From an uncultured Methylophaga sp. (GTDB lineage: Bacteria > Pseudomonadota > Gammaproteobacteria > Nitrosococcales > Methylophagaceae), in NCBI RefSeq assembly GCF_947259025.1, contig NZ_CAMYKO010000004.1, forward strand, positions 310,001-374,000: a stretch of 64,000 bases of DNA, given 5' to 3'. Shown one piece after another: positions 34,071-58,968 of the stretch (the stretch's first letter is position 1; each line of letters begins with the position of its first letter). Position numbers and translations under genes: made by a program. Below the pieces are notes generated by a model. It had not been told where the DNA came from. It made no database searches and was given only the letters and a program-made list of their open reading frames with translations.

Positions 34071-37000
34071 ATGCAAGCAAATATCTCTACGAAACTGGCT
34101 TTTTACAGCATGCTGACGGTGCTTGCTGTGCTGTTGTTCGGTGCCGCAGCGTATCTCAATCACAGCCTGGTACAACAACATCAGGCGCAGCTTCACAGTG
34201 AAACCCAGAAGCATCTCACCTTTTATCACAATCGCCTCTACAGCAACCTGCAAAACCATATTCAAATCGTTCGGGGCTTGCCGGGTCTGTTTGCCGTCAA
34301 TCCGGAACTGACTCAGGATCAATTTGCTCGAGCAGTCAGCCATCTGGTCAAGGGGGATTCAGAAATCCGCAATATTGCTGCCGCACCGGATATGGTCATC
34401 AGGTACATGTATCCGATAGAAGGCAATGAAGCGGCAATCGGGCTTGATTACAGAAAAACGCCACAACAAGCTGAAGCTGCCGACAGAGCGCGACGCACAC
34501 GTAATCTTGTTCTCGCCGGCCCCCTGCAACTGAAACAGGGTGGTGTTGGTTTGATCACGCGCATCCCCGTCTTTCTGCAAGAGCCCATTAGTGGTGAAGA
34601 ATATTACTGGGGGTTGATATCAGCCGTTATCGACGTCAATCGCTTTTTTGAAAAAAGCGGGCTACTGGATGACGACTTACCTATAGATTTAGCGATCAGG
34701 GGCGCTGACAGTCTTGGCAGAACCGGCGATGTGTTTTTTGGTGATCCGGCCTTGTTCAATGATGACAGTCTAATTCATACGCTCAACCTGCCGGAAGGCG
34801 AGTGGTTGCTGGCCGCTGCACCGAGGAGAGGCTGGTCAGCGCTGCCATCCGATTTCTGGCAAAAGCGCATCTTGATTTACGGCATTGCTGCTGCTTTGTT
34901 TCTGCTTATGGCGCTGTTTATTCGCTTTATCTTTGCCGCTTCACTGGCTAATCACAAGTTCCGTAATCTGATCGAGAGTTCACCAGTGCCATATATGTTG
35001 TTGGGTGCGGGAAACAAAATTATCTCTATCAATCAGGCTTTCATCGAGACCTATGGCTATCGGCTGGATGAGATTAAGTCTCTCAGCAGTTGGTGGGAGA
35101 TCACTGCCGAGCCTCAGCGTTACCGGCATGATTTCCAGAGCTATCTGGGGCTGCAACGCCTTAACAGCAGTGGCAGGCAAACCCACACCACGCCGATGGA
35201 AATTGAACTGCGTACCAAGTCAGGCACCCGAAAAGTGGCATTGCTGAGCACTTCTTTGCTGCAGGATACCTTCGAAGATGAAAAGCTGCTGGTGGTCTAT
35301 GACATCACCGTGCGCAAGGAAGCGGAAGAGCAACTGCGATTCTCGTCGCGGGTATTCAATCAGGCGCAGGAAGGCATCATCATCACTGATACTGTCGGCA
35401 CCATCACCGATGTCAACCCGGCGTTTTGTGAAATTACCGGTTACAGTCGTGAGGAAGTGATTGGCAAAGGACCGCAGCTGCTGAACTCAGGTAAGCACAG
35501 CACTGAGTTTTTCAGCAAAATGTGGCAGTCCATTACCGAGCATGGTTACTGGCAGGGAGAGGTCTGGAACCGTCGCAAGAACGGCGAGCTCTATGCTGAA
35601 CTGCTGACGATTTCGGCGTTGACCGATGATGATGGTCAGAGCCGGCATTTTGTCGGTCTGTTTTCCGATATTACCCAGACCAAACAACAGCAGGAAACGC
35701 TGGAGTTGATGGCGCATTACGATGTGCTGACCAAGCTGCCTAATCGTGTCCTGTTCGCCGACCGCTTCTCCCAGGCGGTGGCGCACAGTAAGCGCACTGA
35801 AACCCTGCTGGCGATTTGTTTCCTGGACCTGGATAACTTCAAACCGGTAAACGACAGCTACGGCCATGAGGTCGGCGACCAGTTGCTGATCGAGGTCGCG
35901 ATGCGACTACGCGCCAATGTGCGTGATGAAGATACCATTTCCCGGTTCGGTGGCGATGAGTTTGCGATTATGTTCCGCGATATCGAAACGCATGAGGAAT
36001 GTGAGTACTTACTCAAGCGTATACATGACTCACTGTCCCAGCCTTACGACGTTAGCGATTTGCGGCTGGAAATCAGTGCATCCAGTGGTGTGACTTTTTA
36101 TCCCAGTGATAATGCCGATCTTGATACCCTGCTGCGGCATGCCGATCAGACCATGTATCAGGCCAAGTTATCAGGGCGTAATACCTTCAAGCTGTTCAAT
36201 CCGGCGCACAACCGTCAGACCATGGAAAAACAGCAGTGGCAGCAGGAAATTCGCGAAGCCTTGAAGGCCGGCCAGTTTTGCCTGTTTTACCAGCCCAAGG
36301 TCAATATGCGCACAGCGAAAGTCTATGGCGCTGAGGCTCTGATTCGCTGGCAGCATCCTGAGCAGGGCCTGTTATCACCGGCCGCATTTTTACCCTTGAT
36401 CAGTGACAGCGATCTGGAAATCGAGATGGGTAACTGGGTGATGCAAACAGCGCTGGCTCAGGCCAGTGCCTGGCATCAGGCCGGGTATCCGCTGGAAGTC
36501 AGTGTCAATGTCGCTTCCTCGCACCTGCAGTCAGCACGCTTCATTGATGATGTAGAAGCGGCGCTGGCCACCTGCCCTGATCTGGACTCACGCTACCTGC
36601 AGCTGGAAATTGTGGAAACCAGTGCTTTAGGTGATATTGCCTCGATTTCGAGGGTGATCAAGCTGTGTCGGGATGTACTGGGTGTGTCTGTGGCGCTGGA
36701 TGATTTCGGTACCGGCTACTCATCATTAACTCATCTGCGCCACTTGACCGCCAGCACCATTAAAATTGATCAGACTTTTGTTCGCGATATGCTCGATGAT
36801 CCCCAGGATTACACGATAGTTGATGGCGTCAGTGGGCTGGCTGGTGCCTTTAATCGTCAGGTCATCGCCGAGGGCGTAGAAACCGTCGAGCATGGTTTGA
36901 TGCTGCTGATGATTGGCTGTGAACATGCTCAGGGTTACGGCATCGCCAGACCCATGCCGGCAAGGGAGTTACAGCCTTGGCTGGAGCAATACCGGCCTGA

Positions 37001-37451
37001 TCAGCAGTGGCTTGACTGCGCCGCCTTGCCTTTGACGCCCAAGCAGCAGGCGCTACGCTTGTTTGAGCTGACCAGCCAGCGCTGGTATCGACTGTTTGTG
37101 CAGAACCTGGAGCAGGATAAGGACGAAGTGGAGCACTGGCCGATCATGGATCAACGAAAATGCCATTGTGGTAGCTGGATTCAGCGCGTCAAATCACAAG
37201 GCCTGTTTGATGCTGAGTGGCTGGAGAGGGTTGACCACGCCCACACCGAGTGGCACCACCTTGCGCGTCAGATGCGGGACATGCTGCTTGCTGGCGAAGC
37301 TGCCGCATGCCGGGCCCGGATTGATGATTACCAGCGTCGTTATGCGGCGATGGCCACATTGGTTGATGAAGCCATTTTTCCGGCAACAGTGCTTGCCAGA
37401 AATAGTTCGATGACCAATAATTCACAGACAAATAACAGGGTTATGGAATAG
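34071..37451 (+). CDS. CHASE-PAS-PAS-GGDEF-EAL c-di-GMP protein with CZB-like tail
   Basis: A 1126-residue inner-membrane signalling protein. A TM helix (about 8-28), a periplasmic CHASE domain (40-250) and a second TM helix (about 267-290) come first. Two PAS domains (300-420 and 425-550) and a GGDEF domain with an intact RFGGDEF near residue 626 follow. An RxxD inhibitory site lies five residues before GGDEF. The EAL domain has an intact GAEALIRW near 753 and DDFGTGYSSL. The last 120 residues hold KCHCGSWI and HTEWHHLA, a pattern like chemoreceptor zinc-binding (CZB) domains. Both synthase and phosphodiesterase activities appear possible. An HDOD gene follows after 2 bases. Confidence 0.92.
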   Translation: MQANISTKLAFYSMLTVLAVLLFGAAAYLNHSLVQQHQAQLHSETQKHLTFYHNRLYSNLQNHIQIVRGLPGLFAVNPELTQDQFARAVSHLVKGDSEIRNIAAAPDMVIRYMYPIEGNEAAIGLDYRKTPQQAEAADRARRTRNLVLAGPLQLKQGGVGLITRIPVFLQEPISGEEYYWGLISAVIDVNRFFEKSGLLDDDLPIDLAIRGADSLGRTGDVFFGDPALFNDDSLIHTLNLPEGEWLLAAAPRRGWSALPSDFWQKRILIYGIAAALFLLMALFIRFIFAASLANHKFRNLIESSPVPYMLLGAGNKIISINQAFIETYGYRLDEIKSLSSWWEITAEPQRYRHDFQSYLGLQRLNSSGRQTHTTPMEIELRTKSGTRKVALLSTSLLQDTFEDEKLLVVYDITVRKEAEEQLRFSSRVFNQAQEGIIITDTVGTITDVNPAFCEITGYSREEVIGKGPQLLNSGKHSTEFFSKMWQSITEHGYWQGEVWNRRKNGELYAELLTISALTDDDGQSRHFVGLFSDITQTKQQQETLELMAHYDVLTKLPNRVLFADRFSQAVAHSKRTETLLAICFLDLDNFKPVNDSYGHEVGDQLLIEVAMRLRANVRDEDTISRFGGDEFAIMFRDIETHEECEYLLKRIHDSLSQPYDVSDLRLEISASSGVTFYPSDNADLDTLLRHADQTMYQAKLSGRNTFKLFNPAHNRQTMEKQQWQQEIREALKAGQFCLFYQPKVNMRTAKVYGAEALIRWQHPEQGLLSPAAFLPLISDSDLEIEMGNWVMQTALAQASAWHQAGYPLEVSVNVASSHLQSARFIDDVEAALATCPDLDSRYLQLEIVETSALGDIASISRVIKLCRDVLGVSVALDDFGTGYSSLTHLRHLTASTIKIDQTFVRDMLDDPQDYTIVDGVSGLAGAFNRQVIAEGVETVEHGLMLLMIGCEHAQGYGIARPMPARELQPWLEQYRPDQQWLDCAALPLTPKQQALRLFELTSQRWYRLFVQNLEQDKDEVEHWPIMDQRKCHCGSWIQRVKSQGLFDAEWLERVDHAHTEWHHLARQMRDMLLAGEAAACRARIDDYQRRYAAMATLVDEAIFPATVLARNSSMTNNSQTNNRVME

Positions 37452-44584: not shown

Positions 44585-47500
44585 TCAGGCCGTCTGCAAC
44601 AGATGCGCCAGTATCAACGGGTAGACATCGATATCGGCCTTATCACCGAAAATACAGTCTATGTGGGCATAAGCCGGAATCACATGCCGCTGGTACTGGC
44701 TGTTGCCAAAACGCTGGCACAAGCGGTTATAAGTTCGCTTGGTGCTCTCCGGCAGATAACATTCATTGTCTTCACCGGAAATAAACAGGATCGGCAGATT
44801 CAGCCTTTCCAGATGCGGCAGGTAGCTATCGTTGCCATCGCTATCGACCAGCTTGCCGGCCCGGCACATGGTAGCGAGATGGGCCAGGGTTTCGATATTG
44901 GCTTCAGCAAATAACTCATCCAGGTTGCTGTGCAACAGATGATTGAGTTGATCATGACGATACAGTGAGGCATACATAAAAGTGATGCGGTGACAGCTAT
45001 CGTTATGGCACTGGCCCTGGGCATTGGCCAAGGCATTGATATCCAGCGCTTTATGATAGAGGTCTGTTAGTAAAGAGCCCCCGTCATCAGGAGGATCGGC
45101 AGTGAGTGAGTCTACACCCAGCCGCTCCAGGAAAGAGGGTAAATGTAAGCCGGTTTTCAACGCTGTGGTGGTCGGCACCACGATATCGGTGGCAATTTGC
45201 GAACAGACAATACTGCGCACCCCTTCCAAACCTGCCAGCATCGACATAATGAAGGTGGTGGCCCCGTAGCAATGCACCAGCGCCTGTACAGTGTCGGCCC
45301 CAGTGATGAGTTTAATCTTGCTGATCGCCGCCGGGTAATCAAAGCGGGCCACCTGGTCGCCGTTGGATTGATGGGCTGCTGCCGGCAGCAGAATGCTGAC
45401 CCGATAATCCAGCAGCCAGACATCAAAGCCATTGGCCACCAGATACTCCACCAGATTTGTATCGATCATATCGGTTGAGAAGATACTGGAAGCCACCCCC
45501 AGCCCGTGAACCAGCATTACCGGGCCTTTCTGACCGCCCTGATAGCGGGTCAGTTTCAGCTCAACCCCGTCCTCGGTCAGCAGAGGATACACTTCCGGTG
45601 CCGGTGCCCGCAATGGCCTTTTCTTTCTGGGCAAAGTGGGAGTGTCGCTGTCGGGATTAAAAAACACCCCGCCATAGGTCTGGTAAAGCGTCCCGGCAAA
45701 GAAACGGCCGAAATCGGCGGTGGCCCTGAGCCGCTGCTCCCAGTTGTCGGCGCGGATGACTTCCAGCGTACTCATCTGCCGCAGTAAATCCACGGGTGCA
45801 ATGTGCAGCACGGCTTTGCCGACCAGAGAGCCGCTGTCGTCGGTGCCCCGGTAGAGGGTCACAAACAGCGTGGTGGTATCGGTCCAGACTTCGCTGATCC
45901 CCGGATCATTTTTGATCAGTTTGAAGCCATCAAAAAAATAGGCTTCACCGCTTTCTGCATGTAGCAGCATGCGGTAACGCATCTGACGGCTGTCGGGCGG
46001 TGAGTCGATGGACTGGAACAGGTTGAAATGACCGGCACTGACGGTCAAAGCCTTGTCTGACAGCGCCGGGCAATGAACACTGCCATTAATCCGGGCGGCA
46101 TGGGCCGGATCGTTGAGCATGTTTTGCAGATCATCACTGACAATGGTCAGGGTGAACTCCATCGGGTTATCGTCGGCCTGTCCGGCCAGCTCTGCCTGGT
46201 AGAAGCTTTGCAAATCATCCTGGTTATCGCTCAGCTTGGCAAAATGACCACGCATGGTCTCGGTAAAACGTAAGCCCATGGTCTGAGGGGGATGCGGTCG
46301 ATTTGGGGCAGAAGGCAGACTGTAATCAATAACCCAGCCGTTATCCCTGGCCATCAGCGCGCAGCAGCGCTCGGTCAGGGCGCTGATAGTGAACAAAGGG
46401 TTGACCGCAATCGAGGTGGGGATCACCGAGCCATCCGATACGTACAGATCGGAATAGACCGTATCATCCTGGCCCGTGAAGACCTGGCCCTTGTGATTGA
46501 CGACGCCCTCACTGGCATCGGCGGACATCGCACAGCCACCCAGCGGATGAACGGTGACCAGGCTGTTGTGAAACAGCGGTGACCATAGGGGATTTTCGAC
46601 ATAGCTGCCGCCCAGAGCCGTGGTGGCTTCGGTAAGCCGCTGGTGGGCATGAGCAAAGTTAGCCTGTGCGCCCAGATCGGGCCAGTCGATATTGACCCGG
46701 TCATGTTCCAGCGTGATGACGCCCTGTGCATCATCATGGCTCATCACCAGAAAGGTCTGGGTTTGATTGACAGCGCCGTGATAAGGGCCGCGCAAAATGC
46801 TCTGCCAGACATTGCCCTGTTCATCCAGGGCATCGTCATTATCCGTATCATCACCCAGCCATCCGGCAGCGCTGGCCAGTGCCGAAGGCAATGCCTGACC
46901 CAGCGCACCGGGTAAAGCGCCTTCCTCAATCACCATGCGCTGATGCTTGTCGGGGTGATGGCGCAGATCAATCAAGCCGGTAATGCAGGGGCCGACCGGG
47001 TTGAGCTCGCCCGGCGGCCGAGTGCCGAAGCCGACGCCATTGATCAGATCATCGCAGTTATAAGCAAAGCCCAGCATATCGCCGTTGCCGGTAAAGCCAT
47101 GACCCAGTTTGTCGGATAACGCCAAACCCTGTTCACGACTGCGCAGCAGAATCTCATTACTGCCCAGGGTGCCTGCCGCCAGCACCACTTTGCGGGCATC
47201 GACAAACATCAGCGGTGCATCAAAACGCTCACGGCCCATTTCCACAGGCTGGTAATACACCCGCCAGCCATCGGCTTTCTGCTGCAGATGATGCACGCTG
47301 GCCTGGCAAAAAATCTCGGCCCCATGATTCCAGGCATCGGGCAGGTAGTTCATCTGTGTGGTGTTTTTGGCGCCATAATTACAGCCGCTGACGCAGTCCC
47401 CGCAGTTGTTGCAGGGCAGTTGTTCGACACCGACATGGTTGACGCCGGCGGCAAAGCTGTCGAAATTGACATTGATGGGGGGCCGGGAAAAGTCGGCGCC

Positions 47501-48010
47501 CATGGCCTGTGCCGATTGGCGATGCGCTTTGAGTTTATTCAGTGGCGGATAGTCATCCGGATAAGGCGTCGGCTTGAGCATGTCGGCAGCCAACTCAAAG
47601 CCCTGCTGCAACAGGCCATCCTCATCATCGCGGATTTGCTGTGGCCAGGCCGGGTCGCTCAGGACTTCCGCTGTAGGCGGCAGCGACACATTGGCATTGA
47701 TTAGAGAGGTGCCGCCCAACCCACAACCGACCACCACATTCTGTTGTGCCTGAACATGAATATCATAGAGGCCGGTTTCATCACCCAGATGTTTGCCGGG
47801 CAGGTGAAACTGCATTTCCCTGAGCGCCTCGGCTTCGGTATCGGGAAACTCGCCCAGCAGAAATTCGCGGCCGCGTTCCAGCAGGCAGACGGTCTGACCG
47901 GCTCGCGCCAGTCTGGAAGCGGCAATGGCCCCGCCGTAGCCGGAGCCGATAACGATCACATCATAAGGATCAGATTGGATGTCTGAGAGATCGGAGGACA
48001 GGCGTTTCAT
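44585..48010 (-). CDS. GMC oxidoreductase/alpha-beta hydrolase fusion protein
   Basis: A 1141-residue multidomain protein. The N-terminal FAD-binding GMC/cholesterol-oxidase-like part (about 1-560) starts VIVIGSGYGGAIAASRLARAG and ends with HPLGGCAMSAD and SDGSVIPTSIAVNPLFTISAL. Near residues 200-212 it carries a ferredoxin-like cysteine cluster (CNNCGDCVSGC). A beta-rich middle part (about 570-800) resembles the accessory domain of such fusions. The C-terminal alpha/beta hydrolase (about 835-1141) has the oxyanion stretch VHGLG, an acid in SGEDNE and His in YAHIDC. The nucleophile elbow VHCYGA has Cys near residue 913 in place of Ser. The substrate is unknown. It lies 15 bases downstream of a PhoD-like phosphatase gene. 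Confidence 0.85.
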   Translation of the reverse strand: MKRLSSDLSDIQSDPYDVIVIGSGYGGAIAASRLARAGQTVCLLERGREFLLGEFPDTEAEALREMQFHLPGKHLGDETGLYDIHVQAQQNVVVGCGLGGTSLINANVSLPPTAEVLSDPAWPQQIRDDEDGLLQQGFELAADMLKPTPYPDDYPPLNKLKAHRQSAQAMGADFSRPPINVNFDSFAAGVNHVGVEQLPCNNCGDCVSGCNYGAKNTTQMNYLPDAWNHGAEIFCQASVHHLQQKADGWRVYYQPVEMGRERFDAPLMFVDARKVVLAAGTLGSNEILLRSREQGLALSDKLGHGFTGNGDMLGFAYNCDDLINGVGFGTRPPGELNPVGPCITGLIDLRHHPDKHQRMVIEEGALPGALGQALPSALASAAGWLGDDTDNDDALDEQGNVWQSILRGPYHGAVNQTQTFLVMSHDDAQGVITLEHDRVNIDWPDLGAQANFAHAHQRLTEATTALGGSYVENPLWSPLFHNSLVTVHPLGGCAMSADASEGVVNHKGQVFTGQDDTVYSDLYVSDGSVIPTSIAVNPLFTISALTERCCALMARDNGWVIDYSLPSAPNRPHPPQTMGLRFTETMRGHFAKLSDNQDDLQSFYQAELAGQADDNPMEFTLTIVSDDLQNMLNDPAHAARINGSVHCPALSDKALTVSAGHFNLFQSIDSPPDSRQMRYRMLLHAESGEAYFFDGFKLIKNDPGISEVWTDTTTLFVTLYRGTDDSGSLVGKAVLHIAPVDLLRQMSTLEVIRADNWEQRLRATADFGRFFAGTLYQTYGGVFFNPDSDTPTLPRKKRPLRAPAPEVYPLLTEDGVELKLTRYQGGQKGPVMLVHGLGVASSIFSTDMIDTNLVEYLVANGFDVWLLDYRVSILLPAAAHQSNGDQVARFDYPAAISKIKLITGADTVQALVHCYGATTFIMSMLAGLEGVRSIVCSQIATDIVVPTTTALKTGLHLPSFLERLGVDSLTADPPDDGGSLLTDLYHKALDINALANAQGQCHNDSCHRITFMYASLYRHDQLNHLLHSNLDELFAEANIETLAHLATMCRAGKLVDSDGNDSYLPHLERLNLPILFISGEDNECYLPESTKRTYNRLCQRFGNSQYQRHVIPAYAHIDCIFGDKADIDVYPLILAHLLQTA

Positions 48011-48025
48011 CGTGTCTCCCTTGCC

Positions 48026-49714
48026 TTACCAGGCTGCGAGTTTGAGCTGGGATTGTATCGGTCTGCCGGGCAGGCCGAACCAGCCGCCAGCTTCCAGGAT
48101 CTGACCTTTATTACTGAAAGTGGTGACCTGGATATGGTGACTCGCCGGATCAACATCAATCCGGCAGAAGTTATCTTCCTGGGTGAAGTTCCAGGCCCGG
48201 TAATCCATCTTGCAGACTTTGCCATCGGCGCTGAACTCGAAACTGTCTTCCTGACCTTCCGCCTTTGAGTCATGCACATAAGCTGACGGCTCGCCATCAG
48301 CAAAGGGAAAAGGCCAGTAGAGCGCGGAAGAGACAATGGAAAAGGCCCGGATTTTTTCGGCATCGGCAAAGCCGCTGAATGCTATTTCCGCCACATTGCT
48401 GCAGTGAATATCGCCGGACAGGAACACCACGTTCTGGATTTGATGCTCAATCAGTGTGCGCAAAATGGCCTCGCGGGTGTTGGGAAAAGCCGGCCAGGAA
48501 TCGCTGTCCTCTTTCCACTCAATCTTCTGTTTATCAGTCCCTTCGCGGCCAGTTCGGGCATCAATAGGACTGGGTGCAAACACGCTGGCGCTGACAATAA
48601 ACTTGGGCGCATTGCCGAATTTTTGCTGACTTTGTTTCAGCCAGAACAGCAGTAAATCCAGTTGGCTGGGTTCTTCTTCGGACAAGCTGGGCCGGCCCAG
48701 TAAATGGTTATCCCTGAGACTGTCACCCAGATCGCCCATATGTCGCTGAGTACGGGTATCCAGCACAAACAGCGGATAGCCACTACAGGCAAAATCATAA
48801 AACAGCCGGTCACCATAACAGGTCGGCCCATGGACCCACTGATAACTGCGATAGGCATTGATGGCCAGGTTGAATACACGGCGGCTGTCGGCACGGCGGA
48901 TCCGGTCCTGATGCCAGTTGTCCTCGATCTCATGATCATCGAGAATCATATAAGTCGGCACCTGCCGCAGCAGCTTACGCATATGCCGTGAACCGAAAGC
49001 CGAGTGATAGCGTTCCTGAAATTCCTCAAAAGTATCCGCCAGCCCCAGCGGTATATGGCGGTTGAGCATATCGGCATAAATCTGGTCACCGACCATCAGC
49101 AGCATATTCACCGGTGGCCGGCCGTCGCGGCCCTGCGCTTCAGCGAGCAGGGGCTCAAAGATGGCATCGGAATGACGGGTTTTCCACAATAAGCCTGGGT
49201 AACGGCAGGAGCCCAGCAAAAGACTGAGCGGCCGTTGCTCGTTGCCGACAGCAGGGAAGGTGGTGAAGCTGGCCTCGGAAAGCTCGGGGTCGAGCCGTTC
49301 CAGATCATTAAACCAGACCATGGCATCCGGCAGGCGCTCGGCCAGTGCATCATGCGGCATGCTGTCCAGTTCGGGGCTGGGATCATCAATATGCAAAGTG
49401 CCGACACGCACCGTGTAGTGGGTGTTGGGTTTTAGAGGAACAGGGCGGTTATCAGCAGGCTTGAGCCCCACTTCCTCGCCCAGCGTGAAAGTGCCGGTGC
49501 GGTCATATTCGCGTCGCAGCCGGAAGTAATAGACACGTTTTTTTCTGGGGCGGCGGTCGTTTTCATGGGTGATGGCAATCACCCCCACTGTGCGCCGGTG
49601 CGCATTGACATCTGCGCCTTCATCACCTGCCGCGCCACGAATCCAGATCCGTGACGTGGTATCGGTGGTATGACCCACAATCGGCCCCAATTGAGCCGGA
49701 CGAAGACTGCTCAT
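48026..49714 (-). CDS. PhoD-like metallophosphatase (alkaline phosphatase D family)
   Basis: A 562-residue protein with a PhoD N-terminal beta domain (GPIVGHTTDTTSRIWIRG) and a metallophosphoesterase core. The metal-binding motifs are MVGDQIYAD, LDDHEIEDNW and LSGDIHCSN. There is no obvious Tat or Sec signal peptide at the chosen start, unlike classical secreted PhoD, so it may be cytosolic. It forms an operon with the GMC/hydrolase fusion, suggesting joint work on a lipid or phosphoester substrate, which is inference. Confidence 0.87.
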   Translation of the reverse strand: MSSLRPAQLGPIVGHTTDTTSRIWIRGAAGDEGADVNAHRRTVGVIAITHENDRRPRKKRVYYFRLRREYDRTGTFTLGEEVGLKPADNRPVPLKPNTHYTVRVGTLHIDDPSPELDSMPHDALAERLPDAMVWFNDLERLDPELSEASFTTFPAVGNEQRPLSLLLGSCRYPGLLWKTRHSDAIFEPLLAEAQGRDGRPPVNMLLMVGDQIYADMLNRHIPLGLADTFEEFQERYHSAFGSRHMRKLLRQVPTYMILDDHEIEDNWHQDRIRRADSRRVFNLAINAYRSYQWVHGPTCYGDRLFYDFACSGYPLFVLDTRTQRHMGDLGDSLRDNHLLGRPSLSEEEPSQLDLLLFWLKQSQQKFGNAPKFIVSASVFAPSPIDARTGREGTDKQKIEWKEDSDSWPAFPNTREAILRTLIEHQIQNVVFLSGDIHCSNVAEIAFSGFADAEKIRAFSIVSSALYWPFPFADGEPSAYVHDSKAEGQEDSFEFSADGKVCKMDYRAWNFTQEDNFCRIDVDPASHHIQVTTFSNKGQILEAGGWFGLPGRPIQSQLKLAAW

Positions 49715-50781: not shown

Positions 50782-51354
50782 ATGAAAACTGTTGTCTACC
50801 GCTGTAGATATGCGCTGAGTCTGGCACTGTTTATCGCCGGCTCCGTGCTTGCTGACGAGCCTTCATCAGATAAAACCACTGATGACTGCGAAGTCGTGGG
50901 CATCAACTACCAGGACAATCCGGAGCTGACCCGCGCAGAGAAACTGGCTCTGATGGAACAGGCCTTCTACGAATCACTAAAAAAATTCGAAGACTGTAAT
51001 TTGTCCATCAACGACAGTTCATCAGCAAACGGCAACGCCGCATCAGCCGCAGGCAGTGCGGGCGGTGAGTCTGCTGCCAGTGAGGCTATGCAGGGTACTG
51101 AGGCTGAAACTGAACAGGAAGCGGTCGCCGCCAGCGACGCCAGTTCAGCGGTGAGCAGTGAAGACAACAGCGAACAAGTGCTCAGTGGCCCGGCAGACAA
51201 TGGCAAGATCCCCGATGATATTCCGCCGGCTGAAAATGATGATGCCATTGCCGCCCAAATCCGCATTGCAGCTGAAGCCGAAACCGACCCCGAAGTCCGC
51301 AAAAAATTGTGGAATGAATACCGTAAATACAAAGGAATGAACGTTGAACATTGA
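50782..51354 (+). CDS. Secreted acidic low-complexity protein, first gene of the cluster
   Basis: A 190-residue product with a signal peptide (cleavage near VLA-DEPSSD) and a short conserved-looking block (DCEVVGINYQDNPELTRAEKLALMEQAFYESLKKFEDC) with two cysteines. A Ser/Ala/Glu-rich low-complexity stretch (about residues 78-140) follows, then a helical end. The low-complexity part suggests a flexible periplasmic linker. It starts a plus-strand run of eight genes, and its stop overlaps the next gene by 11 bases. Function unknown. Confidence 0.72.
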   Translation: MKTVVYRCRYALSLALFIAGSVLADEPSSDKTTDDCEVVGINYQDNPELTRAEKLALMEQAFYESLKKFEDCNLSINDSSSANGNAASAAGSAGGESAASEAMQGTEAETEQEAVAASDASSAVSSEDNSEQVLSGPADNGKIPDDIPPAENDDAIAAQIRIAAEAETDPEVRKKLWNEYRKYKGMNVEH

Positions 51355-52579
51355 TCGTTTCAGACAACCCTCCAAACTGCTGGTCTACCTGCTGATCATG
51401 ATGCATGCGCTGACCGCCTGCGTCGGTGGTCAGAGCAAGCCTTCAGCGACCGGGCCGCAGCTGGCTTCAAGCTTCGAAGAAGACAGTAGCGAAGTGGCCT
51501 ACACTGGCCCCAGGCTGGATGTCATTATTCCGGCCTTTTCCCCCGGCCTGTCGGAAGATGAAGCCAATTATGAAGAAGAAGGTATCTGGCCCGAACTGCG
51601 CCGCGCCGAAGCCAACCGCTTTGCCTATAAGCTGAAACAGGCACTGGAAAAAACCGGCAAGTTTGGCGCTGTGCGGGTCACGCCGGATAACACCGCTTCC
51701 GGCGATTTGTATGTGCTGGGAGAAATTATCGAATCCAATGGCATGGATCTGGAATTCGATATGGAAGTCGTGGATATCAGTGGCAAGCAGTGGCTGGATG
51801 AAAACATCGCACATGAAGTCACGGAAGGCTTTTACAAAAATCCCAGAAACGAGGGAGTCGACGCCTACGACCCGGCCTTTGAGGACGCCGCCAATCGGAT
51901 TGTGGCCGCCCTGCTGGAACAACAGCAGCGCCGTCTCGCCGAACTTAAACAGATTGCCGATCTGCGTTTCGGCGCCAGCTTTAATGAACAGGCTTTCCTG
52001 CCTTACCTCAACACGGATGCGCAGCCGATGACGCTTAATGCCATGCCCAGCGATGCCGACCCGCTGTTCCAGCGCGTGAAATCGGTGCGGGTTCGCGAGC
52101 AGTTGTTTATCGATAATCTGCAGCAGGATTACAGTGGTTTCAGTCAGCAGATGGAAGACAGCTATCTGGTCTGGCAAAAAGCCAGTTTTACTGAAATGCA
52201 GCTCAGAAAAGAAGCCAACACCAAAAGCTGGATGAAGATTGCCGGCGGTGTGCTGCTGGTCGCGGCCGCTATTGCGGCTGCCGCCTCCGGTGAGCCATAC
52301 GATAATAATATCGGTGCTGATATTGCCGCGGTGGCTGCCGGTGTTGGTGGCGCGGTGCTCATTAACAGCGGCTTCACCTCACGTGAGGAAGCCAAGATGC
52401 ATCAGGATGCCATTAATGAACTTGGGGAGTCGGTCAACCTGGAAATGTCGCCGCAGGTCATCAGCTTTGAGGAAAAAACGGTTGAACTTACCGGTGATGT
52501 CGAGGAACAGTTCCAGCAGTGGCGCGCCTTTATGTCACAAATGTATGAGCTCGAGGCCACCCCTGAAACCCAGCTGTAG
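51344..52579 (+). CDS. Lipoprotein with glycine-zipper-like hydrophobic segment
   Basis: A 411-residue product starting at TTG 51344, behind AAAGGA, with a lipoprotein signal ending in LTAC (Cys26). Residues 40-190 form an alpha/beta region with RFAYKLKQALEKTGKFGAVRVTP, reminiscent of CsgG/LpoB-like folds. A helical part follows, and near residues 300-350 are two Ala/Gly-rich hydrophobic stretches (GGVLLVAAAIAAAASG, AAVAAGVGGAVLINSG) that may insert in a membrane. It overlaps the preceding gene and sits 8 bases before the next. An outer-membrane component is the likely role, by inference. Confidence 0.7.
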   Translation: MNIDRFRQPSKLLVYLLIMMHALTACVGGQSKPSATGPQLASSFEEDSSEVAYTGPRLDVIIPAFSPGLSEDEANYEEEGIWPELRRAEANRFAYKLKQALEKTGKFGAVRVTPDNTASGDLYVLGEIIESNGMDLEFDMEVVDISGKQWLDENIAHEVTEGFYKNPRNEGVDAYDPAFEDAANRIVAALLEQQQRRLAELKQIADLRFGASFNEQAFLPYLNTDAQPMTLNAMPSDADPLFQRVKSVRVREQLFIDNLQQDYSGFSQQMEDSYLVWQKASFTEMQLRKEANTKSWMKIAGGVLLVAAAIAAAASGEPYDNNIGADIAAVAAGVGGAVLINSGFTSREEAKMHQDAINELGESVNLEMSPQVISFEEKTVELTGDVEEQFQQWRAFMSQMYELEATPETQL

Positions 52580-52587
52580 GTCAGCCC

Positions 52588-54033
52588 ATGCTTAATGAGA
52601 AAATCGCCCGGGCCAGACAGGCAAAACGACAGAATTTTTTGCGTCTTATTGCCTTCGGCAGCGCCGCGCTGTTGTTGCTGGCGCTGGTGTTTTTTTTCAG
52701 CAGCTATTCCCCCTCTGACCCTGAACAACCGGTTGCGACCGAGCAACCGGAAACAGCGGCTCCACCTCAGCCGTCAGACTCGACAGCGACGCCGGTAGGC
52801 GACAGCGAGGTAAGAGAAAGCTATCTTGAAGCCTACGCGCATTATCAGAATGTCTTGAGACCGCAACTCGATGAGATAGATATTAAAAGTTGGGATAAAG
52901 CGCTGGCCGAGCGCCTTCAACAGGGGGAAGCTGATGCCATTGAGGCCTTTTCAGCCGGTGACTATGGCAAAGCCAACAGCGCAATGAAAGCGCTCAATAC
53001 GCTGGCCGAAACCACGCTTGAAAACAGTCGTCAGGCATTCAATGAAGCGATGAAAAATGCTGAACAAGCTTACGATGCGCTGGATTACAACCGTGCACGC
53101 CTTGAAGCTGACAAGGTGCTGATGCATAAGGCCGAAGATGAGGACGCTCAGCAGCTGTCGGCCAAAATAGAACAGATCCCGCAGCTGGCCTCACTGGAAA
53201 AAGCGATTAACGTGGCCCGAGCAGAAAACAATCCGGCCAAAGAGCTGGCGCTTATCAATGATCTGCTGCAAATCGATAGCGAGCAGGAGGCCATGAAACA
53301 GCGCGCCGCCTCACTGCGAAGTCAGCTCGCCGCCAATCGTTATGATCAGCATATTGCCCGGGGCTACCGTGCTGTTGATGCAGCCGATCTTTCAGCGGCA
53401 AAAACAGCGCTTAATCAGGCCAGACAGCTTTATGCCGAGCGCGCGGAAAATCAGCAACTGGCCGCAGCGATTACTGAACTTGAGTCCCGTCTTGTTTATG
53501 AATCGAGTGTCGCCGCTGCGCAAGCGGCGCAACAGGCGGATAACTGGCAAAGCGCAGTCAAAGAATGGAAACAGGCACTGCAGCAACGCCCTGCTGATAA
53601 AACAATCAGCGATAATTTGACCCGCGCCGAGCGCATTGTCTCGCTGCAGCAGCAAATGCAGGCCTTGCAGGCCAATCCTCAACGCTTGTCCAACGAACTG
53701 GTGAAGTCCAAAGCAGAGATTGCATTGATTCAGGCAGAACCGCTGCGCGGGGCCAGTCCTTCACTCAATGCCGCCGCCAACAAACTGCGTGACAGCATGA
53801 ATGCGGCGAACAAACCCGTCACCGTGGAAGTCATTTCCGATGGTGAAACCGCCATCTCAGTGCGCGGTGTGGGTGTAGTGGGTACCACCCGCGCCAAGAC
53901 CATCGAGTTGAAACCCGGCACTTATCAGTTCGAGGGCAAACGTCAGGGCTATAAGTCCAAAATCGTTGAAGTCACCATTCCCCCCGATACAGCGTCTTAC
54001 CAAGTGAGCATTGTCGCCGATGAGCGAATTTAA
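52588..54033 (+). CDS. Membrane-anchored repeat protein with C-terminal PEGA-like domain
   Basis: A 481-residue protein with an N-terminal TM helix (about residues 20-38) after a basic start, a Pro/Thr-rich linker and a long helical repeat region (about 75-390). Phrases there, such as FSAGDYGKANSAMKAL and AYDALDYNRARLEADKVL, look like TPR units. A C-terminal PEGA-like beta domain (about 410-481, TIELKPGTYQFEGKRQGYKSKIVEVTIPP) follows. The topology places the repeats in the periplasm. It overlaps the next gene by 14 bases. Confidence 0.75.
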   Translation: MLNEKIARARQAKRQNFLRLIAFGSAALLLLALVFFFSSYSPSDPEQPVATEQPETAAPPQPSDSTATPVGDSEVRESYLEAYAHYQNVLRPQLDEIDIKSWDKALAERLQQGEADAIEAFSAGDYGKANSAMKALNTLAETTLENSRQAFNEAMKNAEQAYDALDYNRARLEADKVLMHKAEDEDAQQLSAKIEQIPQLASLEKAINVARAENNPAKELALINDLLQIDSEQEAMKQRAASLRSQLAANRYDQHIARGYRAVDAADLSAAKTALNQARQLYAERAENQQLAAAITELESRLVYESSVAAAQAAQQADNWQSAVKEWKQALQQRPADKTISDNLTRAERIVSLQQQMQALQANPQRLSNELVKSKAEIALIQAEPLRGASPSLNAAANKLRDSMNAANKPVTVEVISDGETAISVRGVGVVGTTRAKTIELKPGTYQFEGKRQGYKSKIVEVTIPPDTASYQVSIVADERI

Positions 54034-56041
54034 ACAGGCCGTTTTTGAAGCCAAACAAAAAAGCCGGCGCCGGCGTCTGCTATGGAGCGCCGGCAGCATG
54101 CTGGCAGTGCTGTTTGTTATCAGTCTGCTGATCATCGCCAAGGCCAGCCGTATTGAAGTATTGCCTCAGGAAATCAGTAAGCAGGCCGAAGTCTCGGCCA
54201 TTTCCGGGCTGGCTTTTGTGATCGACAATCATCTTTACAGCCTGACCTCAAAGGCAGAGATTGAAGCCACTGCAACGGGCTATAGACCACAGACACGCAC
54301 GATTGCCAACCAGGATTTCGGCAAGGTCATTCAACTGGTGCTGGAACCGTTGCCGGCCTGCCTGCTGATGAGTTCGCCCATTAGAGACAATCAAACCCGC
54401 TGGTCCATCAACGGTTCGATGATTGCGGTGGCTGACACACTCGAACAGCAGTTGGAGCCGGGAGACTATCAGGTTGAAATCAGCCATCCCTATTACCAGC
54501 CGCAAACCCTCAATCTGACGCTCAAACCCGGCGAAGTGATGGAACAGACCCCCAGCCTGTCGCCACTTCAGGGTGAGCTTGCCATCAGCAGCATCCCTGA
54601 GGGCGCCTCGGTGAGCATTAATGGCGAAACACAGGGTCAGACCCCGCTCACATTGGCACTGGTCGGTGGTGAGTATCAGGTCGAGGTCGCGAAAGCCGGT
54701 TTTGACCCCAGCCGCGAGCAGCTTGAGATCAGTCAAAGCGACCCCAACCCCAGCCGCGAGTACCGACTCGCAGCCAAAAGCGCCGGCGTGACGGTGTCAC
54801 TGGATCCGGCAGGCGGCACGCTGACACTGAACGGCATTAATGTGAATCCACAGGGTAAAATTCGCCTCAAGGCTGGGCAGGAAAACACACTCCGCTACCA
54901 GAAACCTGGCTACTTCAGCCAAACACGGACGCTAACGCTGACTGCTGAGGAAAGTCGTCACCTTGATTTCAGCCTGGAACAGGAAATGGGGGCGCTCAAA
55001 GTCACTGCCAGCAAAACGGCCGAGGTCTTTATCAATGGCAAAAAAGCCGGTGACACGCCTTTTGAAACCCGGCTGATGGCGATTCCGCATCAGATCGAGG
55101 TCCGTGCGCCTGGCTACAGGACAATCAAGCAGACTGTGACGCCGAAAGCCAGTGCCACAGCGACGGTGCACGCTGTCATGGTGTTGGAAGCCGAAGCACG
55201 GCTTGCCGATGCCCCGCCGGTTTATAAAACCAAAGCCGGGGGCGAGATGGTGCTGTTTAAACCCAGCGACCAGATCAGGATGGGGGCAGCCCGCGGAGAG
55301 CCCGGCCAGCGCGCCAATGAATTTATTAAAACCGTACACATTAACCGGCCGTTTTATGCCGGACGTCATGAAGTCACCAATGCCGCTTATACGCAGTTTG
55401 ATAAGGCCCATGGCGGCCAAGCACAACTGCCAACCACCGGTGTCAGCTGGGTTGAAGCGGCCCAATATGCCAACTGGCTGAGCCGGAAAGAGAACCTGCA
55501 GCCGGTGTATCAGTTCAGTGGTAACACTCTCACGGCTATCAATTCCAGCGCCGATGGCTATCGCTTATTGACTGAGGCCGAATGGGAATGGCTTGCCAGA
55601 AAAGCCGGCAGAGCACAGCAAAGCCGGTTTGTCTGGGGGAACAGCCAGACCATCCCTAAAAATGCCGTCAATATCGCCGATGTCTCGGCCAAAGGCAGTG
55701 TCACGGTTTATGTGCCGCGCTATGATGATGGTTATGCCGGGATGGCACCAGTGATGTCGATGCAACGGGAACAGTCAGGGCTGTTTGATATGGGCGGCAA
55801 TGTCAGTGAGTGGACCCATGATGCCTATACACTGATACCACCAACGGCAACTGCGGCAGAGCCGCATCAACTCGACACCAACCTCACTGCCAGCCGTGTC
55901 ATCAAAGGCGCGAACTGGCGTTCTGGCTCCTTAACCGAGCTGCGCGCTTCCTACCGCGATGGCAAGACCGAGGGGGCCGAAACACTGGGTTTCAGGCTGG
56001 GCCGATTTGTTTACGGAGGGCATGACAATGTCACGCATTAA
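54020..56041 (+). CDS. PEGA-repeat protein with formylglycine-generating-enzyme-like domain
   Basis: About 673 residues: an N-terminal TM helix (about 24-43), then three or more PEGA repeats between residues 180 and 370 (for example ISSIPEGASVSINGETQGQTPL and GALKVTASKTAEVFINGKKAGDTPF). A C-terminal FGE/SUMF1-type domain (about 407-670) has FYAGRHEVTNAAYTQF, GVSWVEAAQYANWLS, YRLLTEAEWEWLAR, DMGGNVSEWTHD and GFRLGR. The cysteine pair that binds copper in true FGE is absent (VIKGANWRSGSLTELRASYR), so catalysis is unlikely. I prefer ATG 54020 to TTG 54011. Confidence 0.82.
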   Translation: MSEFKQAVFEAKQKSRRRRLLWSAGSMLAVLFVISLLIIAKASRIEVLPQEISKQAEVSAISGLAFVIDNHLYSLTSKAEIEATATGYRPQTRTIANQDFGKVIQLVLEPLPACLLMSSPIRDNQTRWSINGSMIAVADTLEQQLEPGDYQVEISHPYYQPQTLNLTLKPGEVMEQTPSLSPLQGELAISSIPEGASVSINGETQGQTPLTLALVGGEYQVEVAKAGFDPSREQLEISQSDPNPSREYRLAAKSAGVTVSLDPAGGTLTLNGINVNPQGKIRLKAGQENTLRYQKPGYFSQTRTLTLTAEESRHLDFSLEQEMGALKVTASKTAEVFINGKKAGDTPFETRLMAIPHQIEVRAPGYRTIKQTVTPKASATATVHAVMVLEAEARLADAPPVYKTKAGGEMVLFKPSDQIRMGAARGEPGQRANEFIKTVHINRPFYAGRHEVTNAAYTQFDKAHGGQAQLPTTGVSWVEAAQYANWLSRKENLQPVYQFSGNTLTAINSSADGYRLLTEAEWEWLARKAGRAQQSRFVWGNSQTIPKNAVNIADVSAKGSVTVYVPRYDDGYAGMAPVMSMQREQSGLFDMGGNVSEWTHDAYTLIPPTATAAEPHQLDTNLTASRVIKGANWRSGSLTELRASYRDGKTEGAETLGFRLGRFVYGGHDNVTH

Positions 56042-56168
56042 AAAATTGGGGGCGCTGCTGGGCGCTGTCCTGCTGCTGTTCGTCATTGGCTTTACCGCGC
56101 ACAAGGTTTATGCCGGTAAACCGGTCATCAGTCTTAACTCGCCCGTTTCTTTTCCGGTGGATATCTGA
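56028..56168 (+). CDS. 46-residue membrane peptide of the envelope cluster
   Basis: A short product with a basic start (MSRIKKLG), one hydrophobic helix (about residues 8-28) and a polar tail (KPVISLNSPVSFPVDI). GGAGG lies 8 bases before ATG 56028, which favours this start over ATG 56022. It overlaps the FGE-domain gene by 14 bases and is 2 bases before the channel-like gene, so it is embedded in the operon. The helix could be an uncleaved anchor or a signal peptide (cleavage near VYA-GK). Function unknown. Confidence 0.72.
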   Translation: MSRIKKLGALLGAVLLLFVIGFTAHKVYAGKPVISLNSPVSFPVDI

Positions 56169-56170
56169 AC

Positions 56171-56953
56171 ATGAACGAAACGTTGAAAAATTTCGCTGCG
56201 CTGGTGGTGTCGGTGATTGTGGTACATATGCTGTTTATCGCCTACGTCAGGCCGGAAGCGGCACAGTTAATGGCAGAGGCCGCGGCACAGGGACAGTCTG
56301 CACCGCGCGATATCGTGGTGCTGATCAAGGACTATGAACAGCAGATCTGCTTCATTCTGCTGCTTTGGGGCTGTTTTCTGATTAGCAGTGCTTATCGCCA
56401 GATTCTCAAAACCAAGTATCTCTACAATGTGGATCTGATTGAAGATGTGCGCATTGAAAACAGCGAAGAGACCAATGCCCGACACGATCTCGACGTCAAC
56501 GGCATCATTCAGCGCCTCGATCATGATATTCCGGAAGACTGCCGCCAATCCCCGCTGGTGCAGACGTTGCGCTCAGCATTATGGCGTTACAGCTCCACCG
56601 ATAATGTGCAGAATCTGTCCGATGCTATCGAGAGCAACCTGGAAGCCATCGCGGTCAAGCAGGATTCCGAGAACACCATGATCCGCTATCTTATCTGGGC
56701 GATTCCCTCGATAGGCTTTATCGGCACTGTGCGCGGTATCGGTCAGGCGCTGTCTCAAGCCGATGAAGCGCTGGCCGGTGATATTGCCGGGATGACCGAC
56801 AGTCTCGGTATCGCCTTTAACTCCACCCTGGTTGCCCTGCTTATCAGTATCTTTCTGATGTTTCTGTTCCACCAGCTTCAACGCCTGCAGGACAGTCAGA
56901 TTGTCGATACGCAGGACTATTGCGACAGGTTCCTGCTGCGCCGCATCAGGTAA
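56171..56953 (+). CDS. MotA/TolQ/ExbB-like proton-channel subunit
   Basis: A 260-residue inner-membrane protein. TM helices are at about residues 8-25, 58-78, 170-193 and 213-236. The family core is LIWAIPSIGFIGTVRGIGQALSQADEALAG, then AGMTDSLGIAFNSTLVALLISIFLMFL. The GTVRGI turn and the small-residue-rich last helix match TolQ, ExbB and MotA. A cytoplasmic loop of about 90 residues lies between TM2 and TM3. Its partners are probably the two VWA proteins encoded directly downstream, which carry ExbD/MotB-like single helices. Confidence 0.88.
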   Translation: MNETLKNFAALVVSVIVVHMLFIAYVRPEAAQLMAEAAAQGQSAPRDIVVLIKDYEQQICFILLLWGCFLISSAYRQILKTKYLYNVDLIEDVRIENSEETNARHDLDVNGIIQRLDHDIPEDCRQSPLVQTLRSALWRYSSTDNVQNLSDAIESNLEAIAVKQDSENTMIRYLIWAIPSIGFIGTVRGIGQALSQADEALAGDIAGMTDSLGIAFNSTLVALLISIFLMFLFHQLQRLQDSQIVDTQDYCDRFLLRRIR

Positions 56954-56959
56954 GTTGCT

Positions 56960-58021
56960 TTGGCACATAAACCCCGCCGCGCTGAAGGATCGAGTCTCGC
57001 CTTTCTGGACATTATGTCCTGCGGGCTGGGCGCGGTGATCCTGGTCTTTATGCTGGTCAAGCAGAGCGTGGATGAAGCCCCGGCCGAAATTGAAAATCTC
57101 AAAAACGATATCAGCCAGCTGGAGCAGGCCAGAGATGAGTCACAGCAGCGGCTGAATGACATCCGTCAGCAGCTGCAACAGGAAAACATCGATATCGCCA
57201 GCCTGCGACAGAGCCTGTCATCTCAGCGGGCTGATCTGCAGGCCAAAAATGAGGCACTGTCGGCCGCCACTTCCACGCTGGACGAGCTCAAGCAAAGCAT
57301 CACCAGCATCAAGGTGCCGGAAAAACAGGATCTGGTCGAAACCCAACAGGTGAACGAAGAACAGTATCTGATGGGGCTCAGGGTGGAGGGCAGCAAGATC
57401 GCCATTTTGCTCGATGCCAGTGCCTCCATGACCAATGAAAAACTGATTGATATCATCAAAACCAAGAGCGGCAGCGATCAGAACAAAATCAACGCCCCCA
57501 AGTGGCAGCGAACGCAACGGGTACTGAGCTGGATGCTGGCCAGACTGCCACAAAACAGTGAGGTGCTGGTGATGGCCTACAATGAACAAGCAAAACAACT
57601 GGGTGGCAAGGGCTGGATTAATGCCAGCAGTGAGTCAGCCAATCGTATCATCCGCGAAGCCAGCAGCCTGGTGCCAACCGGGGCAACCAATCTGCAGAAA
57701 GGTCTGAACGCCATCAAAAGCTTTTCACCCAGCAATGTCTATGTGATTACCGATGGCCTGCCGACCCAGGGCGAGTCGCGCTTTAAAAGCCTGAATCCCT
57801 TTTCAGATTGCAGTTCACTCACCGGTGGCGGTAAAACCATCAGTGGTGAGTGCCGCAAACGACTGTTCCAGCAGACCATCAAGGAGAGCGGCAATATGGG
57901 TGCCCAGCTCGATGTCATCCTGTTACCTATTGAAGGCGACCCGGAAGCGGCTTATCAATACTGGCTGTGGGCGGCCAGTCAGCGCGGTATGGTGATCAGC
58001 CCGGCGAAGAACTGGCCATGA
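56960..58021 (+). CDS. VWA-domain protein with ExbD/MotB-like N-terminal helix (first)
   Basis: A 353-residue protein starting at TTG 56960. A single N-terminal TM helix contains D17 in FLDIMSCGLGAVILVF, placed as the ion-binding Asp of ExbD/TolR/MotB. A coiled coil (about residues 42-115) follows. The periplasmic von Willebrand factor A domain has MIDAS residues D152, S154 and S156 (LLDASASM), the Thr in VPTGATNL and the Asp in ITDGLPT. Two cysteines (in FSDCSS and SGECRK) could pair. It overlaps the next gene by ATGA. Confidence 0.85.
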   Translation: MAHKPRRAEGSSLAFLDIMSCGLGAVILVFMLVKQSVDEAPAEIENLKNDISQLEQARDESQQRLNDIRQQLQQENIDIASLRQSLSSQRADLQAKNEALSAATSTLDELKQSITSIKVPEKQDLVETQQVNEEQYLMGLRVEGSKIAILLDASASMTNEKLIDIIKTKSGSDQNKINAPKWQRTQRVLSWMLARLPQNSEVLVMAYNEQAKQLGGKGWINASSESANRIIREASSLVPTGATNLQKGLNAIKSFSPSNVYVITDGLPTQGESRFKSLNPFSDCSSLTGGGKTISGECRKRLFQQTIKESGNMGAQLDVILLPIEGDPEAAYQYWLWAASQRGMVISPAKNWP

Positions 58022-58968
58022 AGCGACGCAGCAGAAGTCTCGATATTTTCAGCCTGTCCTTTCTGGATGTGATTTCCTGCGGCTTCGGCGCAGTAGTCAT
58101 GCTGATCCTGATTTCCAAAACCGATATCGACCAAAGTCAGGCTGGTGCCGATGAAGTCAGCGCGCTGCTGGCTTCGCTATTGTCGTTGCAGAATTCGGTC
58201 ACGGAGATTGAAAAAACCATGCGCGAGGATTTGGCTGCGCTGGAGTCGTTATCCGATCAAAAGTCCTCCATTCAACAGGCCTCAAGTTCTTTGCAGCAGG
58301 AACTCAGCACGCTGGATAAACAATCCGAAGCGATGGCCGAATCGGTGGAAGGCTTGAGTCTGGTAGAACAAAGGCTGAAACAGGCCTCGCTCAGCACACC
58401 CCGGCCACCGGTCAGCGAGCGTGATGATGAGGTCGGCGGCATCCCGGTCGACAGCGATTACGTGGTATTTATTGTTGATACCTCGGGCAGTATGAAAAGC
58501 ATCTGGGGCAGAGTGTCCAGCGAAATTATCAACGTGCTCAATATTCATCCTGAAGTAAAAGGCTTTCAGGTACTGAATGATATGGGAAAACCGCTGATCT
58601 CGGGCTACGACGGCCGCTGGATTCCCGATACCCAGAGCCGGCGCAAAAATGCCATTTCGCTATTCTCTAAATGGAATGCTGTGTCCAATTCCAGTCCGGT
58701 GGAGGGGCTCAGCGTGGCGCTGAGAAAATATGCCAAACCCAATATCACCACCTCTATTTACGTGTTTGGGGATGAATATTCCGGCGGCAATTATGATGCG
58801 GTGATCAAAACGGTGACCGAACAGAATAGGGTCTTAAGCTCCGGCCGGCGCCTGGCCAGAATTCACGCGGTCGGTTTTATTTCGGCGGGCACCACTGACC
58901 GCTTCAGTGTGTTGATGCGGGAAATGACCCGCCTGAATGACGGCACTTTTATCGCCTTGCCCAACTAG
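58018..58968 (+). CDS. VWA-domain protein with ExbD/MotB-like N-terminal helix (second)
   Basis: A 316-residue paralogue in design of the preceding protein. A TM helix contains D17 in FLDVISCGFGAVVMLI, followed by a coiled coil (about residues 45-122). The VWA domain has the MIDAS D154-S156-S158 (IVDTSGSM). It starts at ATG 58018, overlapping the previous stop in ATGA, so the two are translationally coupled and probably made in equal amounts. I infer that they form a heterodimer standing in the pore of the MotA/TolQ/ExbB-like channel. Confidence 0.85.
   Translation: MKRRSRSLDIFSLSFLDVISCGFGAVVMLILISKTDIDQSQAGADEVSALLASLLSLQNSVTEIEKTMREDLAALESLSDQKSSIQQASSSLQQELSTLDKQSEAMAESVEGLSLVEQRLKQASLSTPRPPVSERDDEVGGIPVDSDYVVFIVDTSGSMKSIWGRVSSEIINVLNIHPEVKGFQVLNDMGKPLISGYDGRWIPDTQSRRKNAISLFSKWNAVSNSSPVEGLSVALRKYAKPNITTSIYVFGDEYSGGNYDAVIKTVTEQNRVLSSGRRLARIHAVGFISAGTTDRFSVLMREMTRLNDGTFIALPN

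Follow-up and report, generated by a model that had tools for sequence, protein, structure and literature searches.

Organization of the locus

The window analysed here is a stretch of 64,000 nucleotides from the 2.7-Mb genome of an uncultured Methylophaga sp., whose closest named relatives, as judged by the F protein described below, belong to Methylophaga. Positions 50782 to 58968 of this window comprise eight consecutive genes, designated A to H, that are likely to encode an ion-driven machine spanning the cell envelope. An earlier note on this DNA had described eight plus-strand genes with overlaps or gaps under 10 bases, and this layout was confirmed: all open reading frames (ORFs) are present and no gap exceeds 8 bases. 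A and B overlap by 11 nt, C and D by 14 nt, D and E by 14 nt, and G and H by 4 nt; gaps of 8, 2 and 6 bases separate B from C, E from F and F from G, respectively. D starts with ATG at 54020 (with TTG at 54011 as a possible alternative start), H with ATG at 58018 and B with TTG. The features are as follows.

50782-58968, plus strand: whole locus A-H, eight genes, all ORFs present
50782-51354, plus strand: A, acidic exported protein of 190 residues with a signal peptide, a low-complexity middle and a conserved C-terminal helix motif
51344-52579, plus strand: B, lipoprotein of 411 residues with a PelC/FlgT/CsgG/TolB-N-like N-terminal domain and a Gly-rich hydrophobic stretch at residues 297-345
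52588-54033, plus strand: C, 481 residues, one transmembrane (TM) helix, TPR-like repeats and a PEGA-like C-terminal domain
54020-56041, plus strand: D, 673 residues, one TM helix, four PEGA stretches and a Cys-free domain of the formylglycine-generating enzyme (FGE) fold
56028-56168, plus strand: E, exported mini-peptide of 46 residues, a predicted signal peptide followed by GKPVISLNSPVSFPVDI
56171-56953, plus strand: F, MotA/TolQ/ExbB-like channel subunit of 260 residues (Pfam; alignment with TolQ)
56960-58021, plus strand: G, 353 residues, a TM helix that contains Asp17, then a coiled coil and a VWA domain with residues of the metal ion-dependent adhesion site (MIDAS), C-terminus WP
58018-58968, plus strand: H, 316 residues, a TM helix that contains Asp17, then a coiled coil and a VWA-like domain, also with MIDAS residues

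Conservation and co-inheritance of the gene set

A scan of GTDB with an alignment of F gave at least 594 stretches with at least 578 confirmed relatives. The best 80 were kept and, together with seven further loci, made up a sample of 87 loci. The gene order A-B-C-D-E-F-G-H recurred across these related loci and all seven large genes were found in 63 of them, so that the set is conserved together outside the window, as the earlier note would have it. Most of the 24 loci short of the seven large genes (21) end at a contig edge on the side of the missing gene. A was not detectable in L066 and L074, whereas L065 lacked both A and B and contained a C-like piece of only 61 residues, reversed, at the contig end. 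In L062 the set was split into two opposed blocks, D-E-F and A-B-C-G-H.

Among 398 Pseudomonadota genomes F, B and H were present in an identical set of 16 and in none of the others. In the family of the window 21 of 57 genomes were F-positive and all of them also contained B, which was found in 22 genomes, the additional one being a 350-contig assembly (G033). This agreement in the presence and absence of F, B and H makes it seem that the block is gained or lost as one unit. Since the gene order is conserved and separate parts of the locus show identical presence and absence, a chance grouping of the eight genes can be regarded as excluded on these sequence comparisons.

The kept loci bore alpha- or gammaproteobacterial names in most cases; named carriers are Methylophaga aminisulfidivorans (L039) and Magnetovibrio blakemorei (L051). 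Four metagenome-assembled genomes (MAGs; L045, L046, L047 and L071) are labelled as Thermodesulfobacteriota, and their loci are nested in a proteobacterial branch of the F tree and transfer or misbinning is therefore possible. An Acidimicrobiaceae MAG labelled as Actinomycetota (L067) has the operon as well; in the F tree it clusters with a MAG of proteobacterial origin, and it is probably misbinned. In M. blakemorei D is represented by two overlapping ORFs of 284 and 412 residues (L051:7846-9850), and this may reflect a frameshift or a sequencing error.

The putative motor core: channel F and the VWA proteins G and H

F was assigned to MotA_ExbB by Pfam (1.9e-13) and aligned with the TolQ/ExbB profiles over 110 columns without gaps (pairwise E 2e-6, probability 89). 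Its residues T186 and T219 align with T145 and T178 of TolQ, which we take to be the ion-path threonines. T186 was found in all 88 F rows and T219 in 87, the remaining row having a gap at this position. The F threonines agree with the threonine ring described for a TolQ-like motor with vWA partners (PMC12204202). The TolQ model applied to the seven proteins scanned from the locus gave 12.7 versus the cut-off of 221 bits.

G was recognized as VWA_2 by Pfam (2.6e-7). The corresponding match of H from the window (0.06) was below the threshold; 8 of 26 members of the H family matched at E ≤ 0.01, and the profiles of H and G could be aligned along the greater part of their length (E 8e-29). Both proteins start with a short basic stretch, followed by a TM helix that carries the motif FLD(I/V)xSCG(L/F)GA. 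The TM Asp (Asp17) was conserved in all 72 G rows with letters at that position (77 rows overall) and in all 74 H rows, and was placed, by eye from the sequences, at the position of the ExbD/TolR Asp. In the MIDAS of G the DxSxS motif and the Asp were present in 77 of 77 rows, with Thr in 71 and Ser in 6, and all five positions were kept in the 74 rows of H. The C-terminus of G is also fixed, ending with WP in 74 of 77 rows (window positions 58013-58021). In the comparison with PDB the best match of G was 8s05, a 'Conserved protein' (2.4e-4), and the matches listed for H were of the coiled-coil type, the best of them (8qox, 0.0028) lying in the coiled coil.

The channel kinship of F, with both TolQ threonines, and the TM-coiled-coil-VWA architecture of G and H thus upheld what the earlier note had proposed for these three proteins. 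Structure prediction was performed in this work on single chains. The motor reading is supported at the level of sequence, and F, G and H would by analogy have a 5:2 stoichiometry and conduct ions.

Putative envelope partners A, B, C and D

In the C-terminal part of A the residues between Q159 and Y183 are each kept in roughly 60 to 66 of the 66 rows. The lipobox Cys of B was present in 68 of 71 rows and was followed by Asp at +2 in none of the 68, hence sorting of B to the outer membrane is expected from its sequence, in line with the earlier note, which counted the lipoproteins among the periplasmic and outer-membrane scaffold. In the AlphaFold2 model of B (mean confidence score, pLDDT, of 77) residues 55-197 matched FlgT in VIA-align with Z of 11.1 (2.9 Å over 125 residues), followed by the LPHT ring chain (Z 10.8), PelC (10.7), CsgG (9.7) and TolB (8.7). 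Foldseek alone gave no match to this model at E ≤ 0.001 and the search of PDB with the B sequence returned nothing meaningful. Judging by the model, the N-terminal domain of B shares the alpha/beta fold of PelC, FlgT, CsgG and the TolB N-terminus. Several proteins of this type form rings or act at the outer membrane.

C had been described as a TM-repeat-PEGA protein. The TM helix and the repeats stood, the latter being TPR-like (TPR_2 in 12 of 24 relatives), but PEGA was detected by Pfam at E ≤ 0.01 in none of 24 proteins, and the C-terminal domain could be aligned with the PEGA repeats of D only by pairwise profile comparison (E 1e-6 to 7e-5), so that it is called PEGA-like here. Two of the 24 relatives have an N-terminal protein kinase domain. 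Most relatives of C end with VxVxCxExI.

The TM-PEGA-FGE composition suggested previously for D was corroborated by Pfam, which detected PEGA in four stretches (2.3e-34) as well as an FGE-sulfatase domain (6.4e-32). The latter, modelled in the relative from L043, adopted the full FGE fold, with Z of 29 to TvpA, 27 to PvdO, 26 to FGE and 25 to PorK. The sole Cys of D in the window, residue 114, lies outside the FGE domain, and in the alignment of 78 rows Cys occurs in over 30 % of rows at column 483 only; the catalytic cysteine pair of the formylglycine-generating enzyme was not found in D. Because the FGE domain has no cysteine, formylglycine chemistry appears very unlikely from the sequence and a role of the domain as a scaffold, as in PorK/GldK, is likely.

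The mini-peptide E

An ORF located upstream of F and ending with [FMYIL]P-x-[DN]-[IM] was found in all 88 sources, i.e. the 87 loci (L091 included) and the window, and FPVDI was the C-terminus in 60 of 87 E sequences. Among the 37,859 remaining ORF ends of this DNA the tag was matched only twice, and one of these two matches was the E of L091 itself. A hydrophobic stretch followed by a signal-peptidase-like site, as defined by a loose rule, was present in 85 of 87 E ORFs; the other two, those of L077 and L082, are incomplete at that end. In the window cleavage is predicted between VYA and GKPVISLNSPVSFPVDI, leaving a tail of 17 residues. The tails of E in the sister clade described below are longer and comprise an acidic linker, often with SEEISED ahead of the tag. 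From these sequences E, previously taken for a TM peptide, is better interpreted as a mini-peptide that is exported and whose C-terminus, FPx[DN]I, is all but invariant. As the tag is fixed at the very C-terminus, docking of the free carboxylate is suggested.

It is tentatively proposed, as a doubtful possibility, that cleavage of E releases a peptide of approximately 17 residues whose carboxylate and FPxDI tag would dock in a pocket of the motor or the scaffold, perhaps at the metal ion in the MIDAS of one of the VWA heads, and thereby lock, load or license the machine. The literature searched yielded no 5:2 motor gated by a peptide. A resemblance between SFPVD and the sulfatase motif [CS]xPxR was also considered and rejected: S precedes F in no more than 47 of 87 E sequences, and the tags counted have D or N at the final position of the motif.

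A sister clade with J and putative regulatory genes

In the F tree a branch of 43 F rows was separated with 100/100 support. In 43 of the 87 loci a profile of J, a gene additional to A-H, found a homologue immediately downstream of F. The 41 loci in which F and G adjoin each other had none. The F-G gap of 1032 in L062 holds the reversed H gene, and the J profile gave no match in that locus. An FHA domain was detected in the J protein of L078 (Pfam, 3.2e-11; one of seven scanned), the FHA matches being otherwise weak. The first impression of J as an actin- or Hsp70-like protein found no supporting evidence and only the FHA part is backed.

Many sister-clade loci have a TPR protein ahead of A (e.g. 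L110:2132-3529), and a TonB C-terminal domain was detected in 10 of 11 scanned proteins of this kind (E ≤ 0.01), in 6 of them above the Pfam cut-off. Two further lipoproteins often follow H (e.g. L110:14158-15680); neither of the two scanned matched Pfam. Genes for a Ser/Thr kinase and a PP2C phosphatase lie directly upstream of the operon in L078 (L078:1-1942) and near it in L089 (L089:16589-18885), with Pkinase matches at 3e-27 and 1e-30, respectively. This gene content fits a regulated trans-envelope machine.

Comparison with known systems

The 5:2 motors are known to power flagella, the Ton and Tol systems, gliding and the type IX secretion system (T9SS), and Zorya. The locus was compared with three of these systems and with a published family of motors.

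According to a recent study (Mol Biol Evol 2025, msaf138, PMC12204202), TM-tethered vWA proteins co-occur, mostly as heterologous pairs, with tolQ homologues in the absence of tolR/exbD; the pairs have a conserved Asp and an AlphaFold 3 pentamer was modelled around them. The F-G-H set corresponds to this family in having a tolQ-like gene beside two different TM-vWA genes, with the TM Asp and the threonine ring, and no tolR/exbD in the cluster. By the architecture described in that article it appears to be the same motor module as the published TPH-vWA one. The statement in the earlier note that no described system of this composition was known is thus not supported as it stands for the channel and the paired vWA core, the novelty of which is lowered by its being already in print as a prediction. 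The main text of the article differs in presenting no A-E genes, peptide tag or J clade, and the words 'sulfatase', 'PEGA', 'formylglycine' and 'GldK' are absent from it. As far as the literature searched extends, no description was found of the eight-gene machine, the peptide tag, the fold of B or the regulated version in the sister clade.

GldKLMN/PorKLMN of type IX secretion and gliding similarly combines a 5:2-type motor with an FGE-fold scaffold, GldK/PorK. The parallel with GldK drawn in the earlier note held in that GldK/PorK was the best NCBIfam match of D, but its score (81.9 versus the cut-off of 350 bits) is far too low for membership; D is membrane-anchored with PEGA repeats, the axle ends in VWA domains and the phylum is different. 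No match to the GldL, GldM or GldN models of NCBIfam at E ≤ 1 was among those listed for the seven proteins. Tol-Pal shares with the locus a TolQ-like channel, single-TM partners with Asp and, in TolB, the N-terminal fold of B, but the A-H locus has a heterodimeric VWA axle, and TolR, TolA, the TolB propeller and Pal were not among the matches listed for the seven proteins. Zorya (ZorAB) likewise has a MotA-type channel and a partner with a long extra-membrane part. The A-H locus differs from it in the VWA heads and the two unlike axle subunits, and ZorC/D/E effectors had no match in the seven proteins or in 8 neighbouring ones.

Proposed mechanism and alternative explanations

The locus is likely, on the sequence evidence, to encode a force transducer of the 5:2 type that is driven by ions and spans the envelope. 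In the arrangement that we infer, including its stoichiometry, ion flux, topology and contacts between parts, F would form the channel ring, and one G together with one H would constitute a heterodimeric axle with ion-binding aspartates. The coiled coils of G and H would project into the periplasm, each carrying a metal-binding VWA head, and the two heads would work against a scaffold composed of the inner-membrane-anchored C, with its TPR-like repeats and PEGA-like domain, and D, with four PEGA stretches and a catalytically dead FGE fold, and of the outer-membrane lipoprotein B. The C-terminal FPxDI tag of E may dock on one of the machine parts as an assembly signal, ligand or plug. The eight genes may make up the complete machine, the task of which would most likely be the remodelling or loading of an outer-membrane assembly, in a Tol-like or T9SS-core-like manner, and not swimming or defence; the last step, to a particular task, is a guess.

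Several results weigh against this interpretation. As 13 of the 16 genomes in which F, B and H co-occur belong to one family, independent co-occurrence events are few, and all 16 fall within 6 of 213 genera. The F profile matched solved MotA/TolQ structures weakly (E 0.2-0.5), so that the kinship of F to MotA/TolQ, although it looks clear from sequence, is distant, and the profile from a narrower alignment compared with solved structures gave no MotA/TolQ match. E could be an uncleaved membrane anchor. When, to examine E as a ligand of the FGE cleft, the FGE domain of D from L043 and E were modelled as one chain, with the stop codon of D read through, the FGE part was confident, but the tail blocks of E had pLDDT of 56-60 and made no confident contact. 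The kinase, phosphatase and FHA genes of the sister clade also fit a signalling role.

The last point is the best argument for an envelope sensor or relay, in which the PEGA, FGE and VWA domains would act as sensors of the wall or the outer membrane, whose state F and the axle helices would signal inward to kinases and FHA proteins. The kinase domain fused to C in two relatives and, in L078, the FHA domain of J and the kinase and PP2C genes next to the operon agree with this possibility, which is nevertheless unlikely, since the operon of the window and the 41 loci with adjacent F and G have no J homologue, and the channel threonines and both aspartates, superfluous for a passive relay, are kept everywhere.

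A machine for surface motility or adhesion, similar to AglRQS-Glt or to GldLM gliding, in which adhesins would be driven by the VWA heads, is an even less likely explanation. The MIDAS of the VWA heads and the proximity of D's FGE domain to GldK among the NCBIfam models speak for it, but no adhesin or gliding gene was a constant neighbour in the flank clusters and the GldL, GldM and GldN models went unmatched, as given above. Adhesin and secretion genes were considered as constant neighbours and rejected, the flank clusters being lineage-bound and none of them general.

Zorya-type anti-phage defence is highly improbable: the patchy presence of the locus (B in 22 of 57 family genomes) and the weak profile likeness of F to ZorA (1.6e-4) and of G to ZorB (1.3e-4) recall it, but the unit contains no effector or nuclease, the heads and the scaffold are predicted to point towards the periplasm and the outer membrane, and none of the 8 neighbouring proteins matched PADLOC at E ≤ 0.001, so that a defence island was also rejected.

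The force transducer proposed here would represent another lineage of 5:2 motors, with a defined and co-inherited parts list, two dissimilar axle proteins, VWA heads and named strains that carry it. The published core lacked envelope partners, and the list of eight genes enables complex prediction, reconstitution and deletion tests. The nearly invariant tag of E, encoded by a tiny and easily missed gene, provides a handle for locating its binding pocket.

Other genes in the window

An ORF of 1141 residues at 44585-49714 on the minus strand combines GMC oxidoreductase domains with an alpha/beta-hydrolase stretch and adjoins a PhoD-like phosphatase. A CHASE-PAS-GGDEF-EAL protein of 1126 residues is encoded at 34071-37451 on the plus strand.

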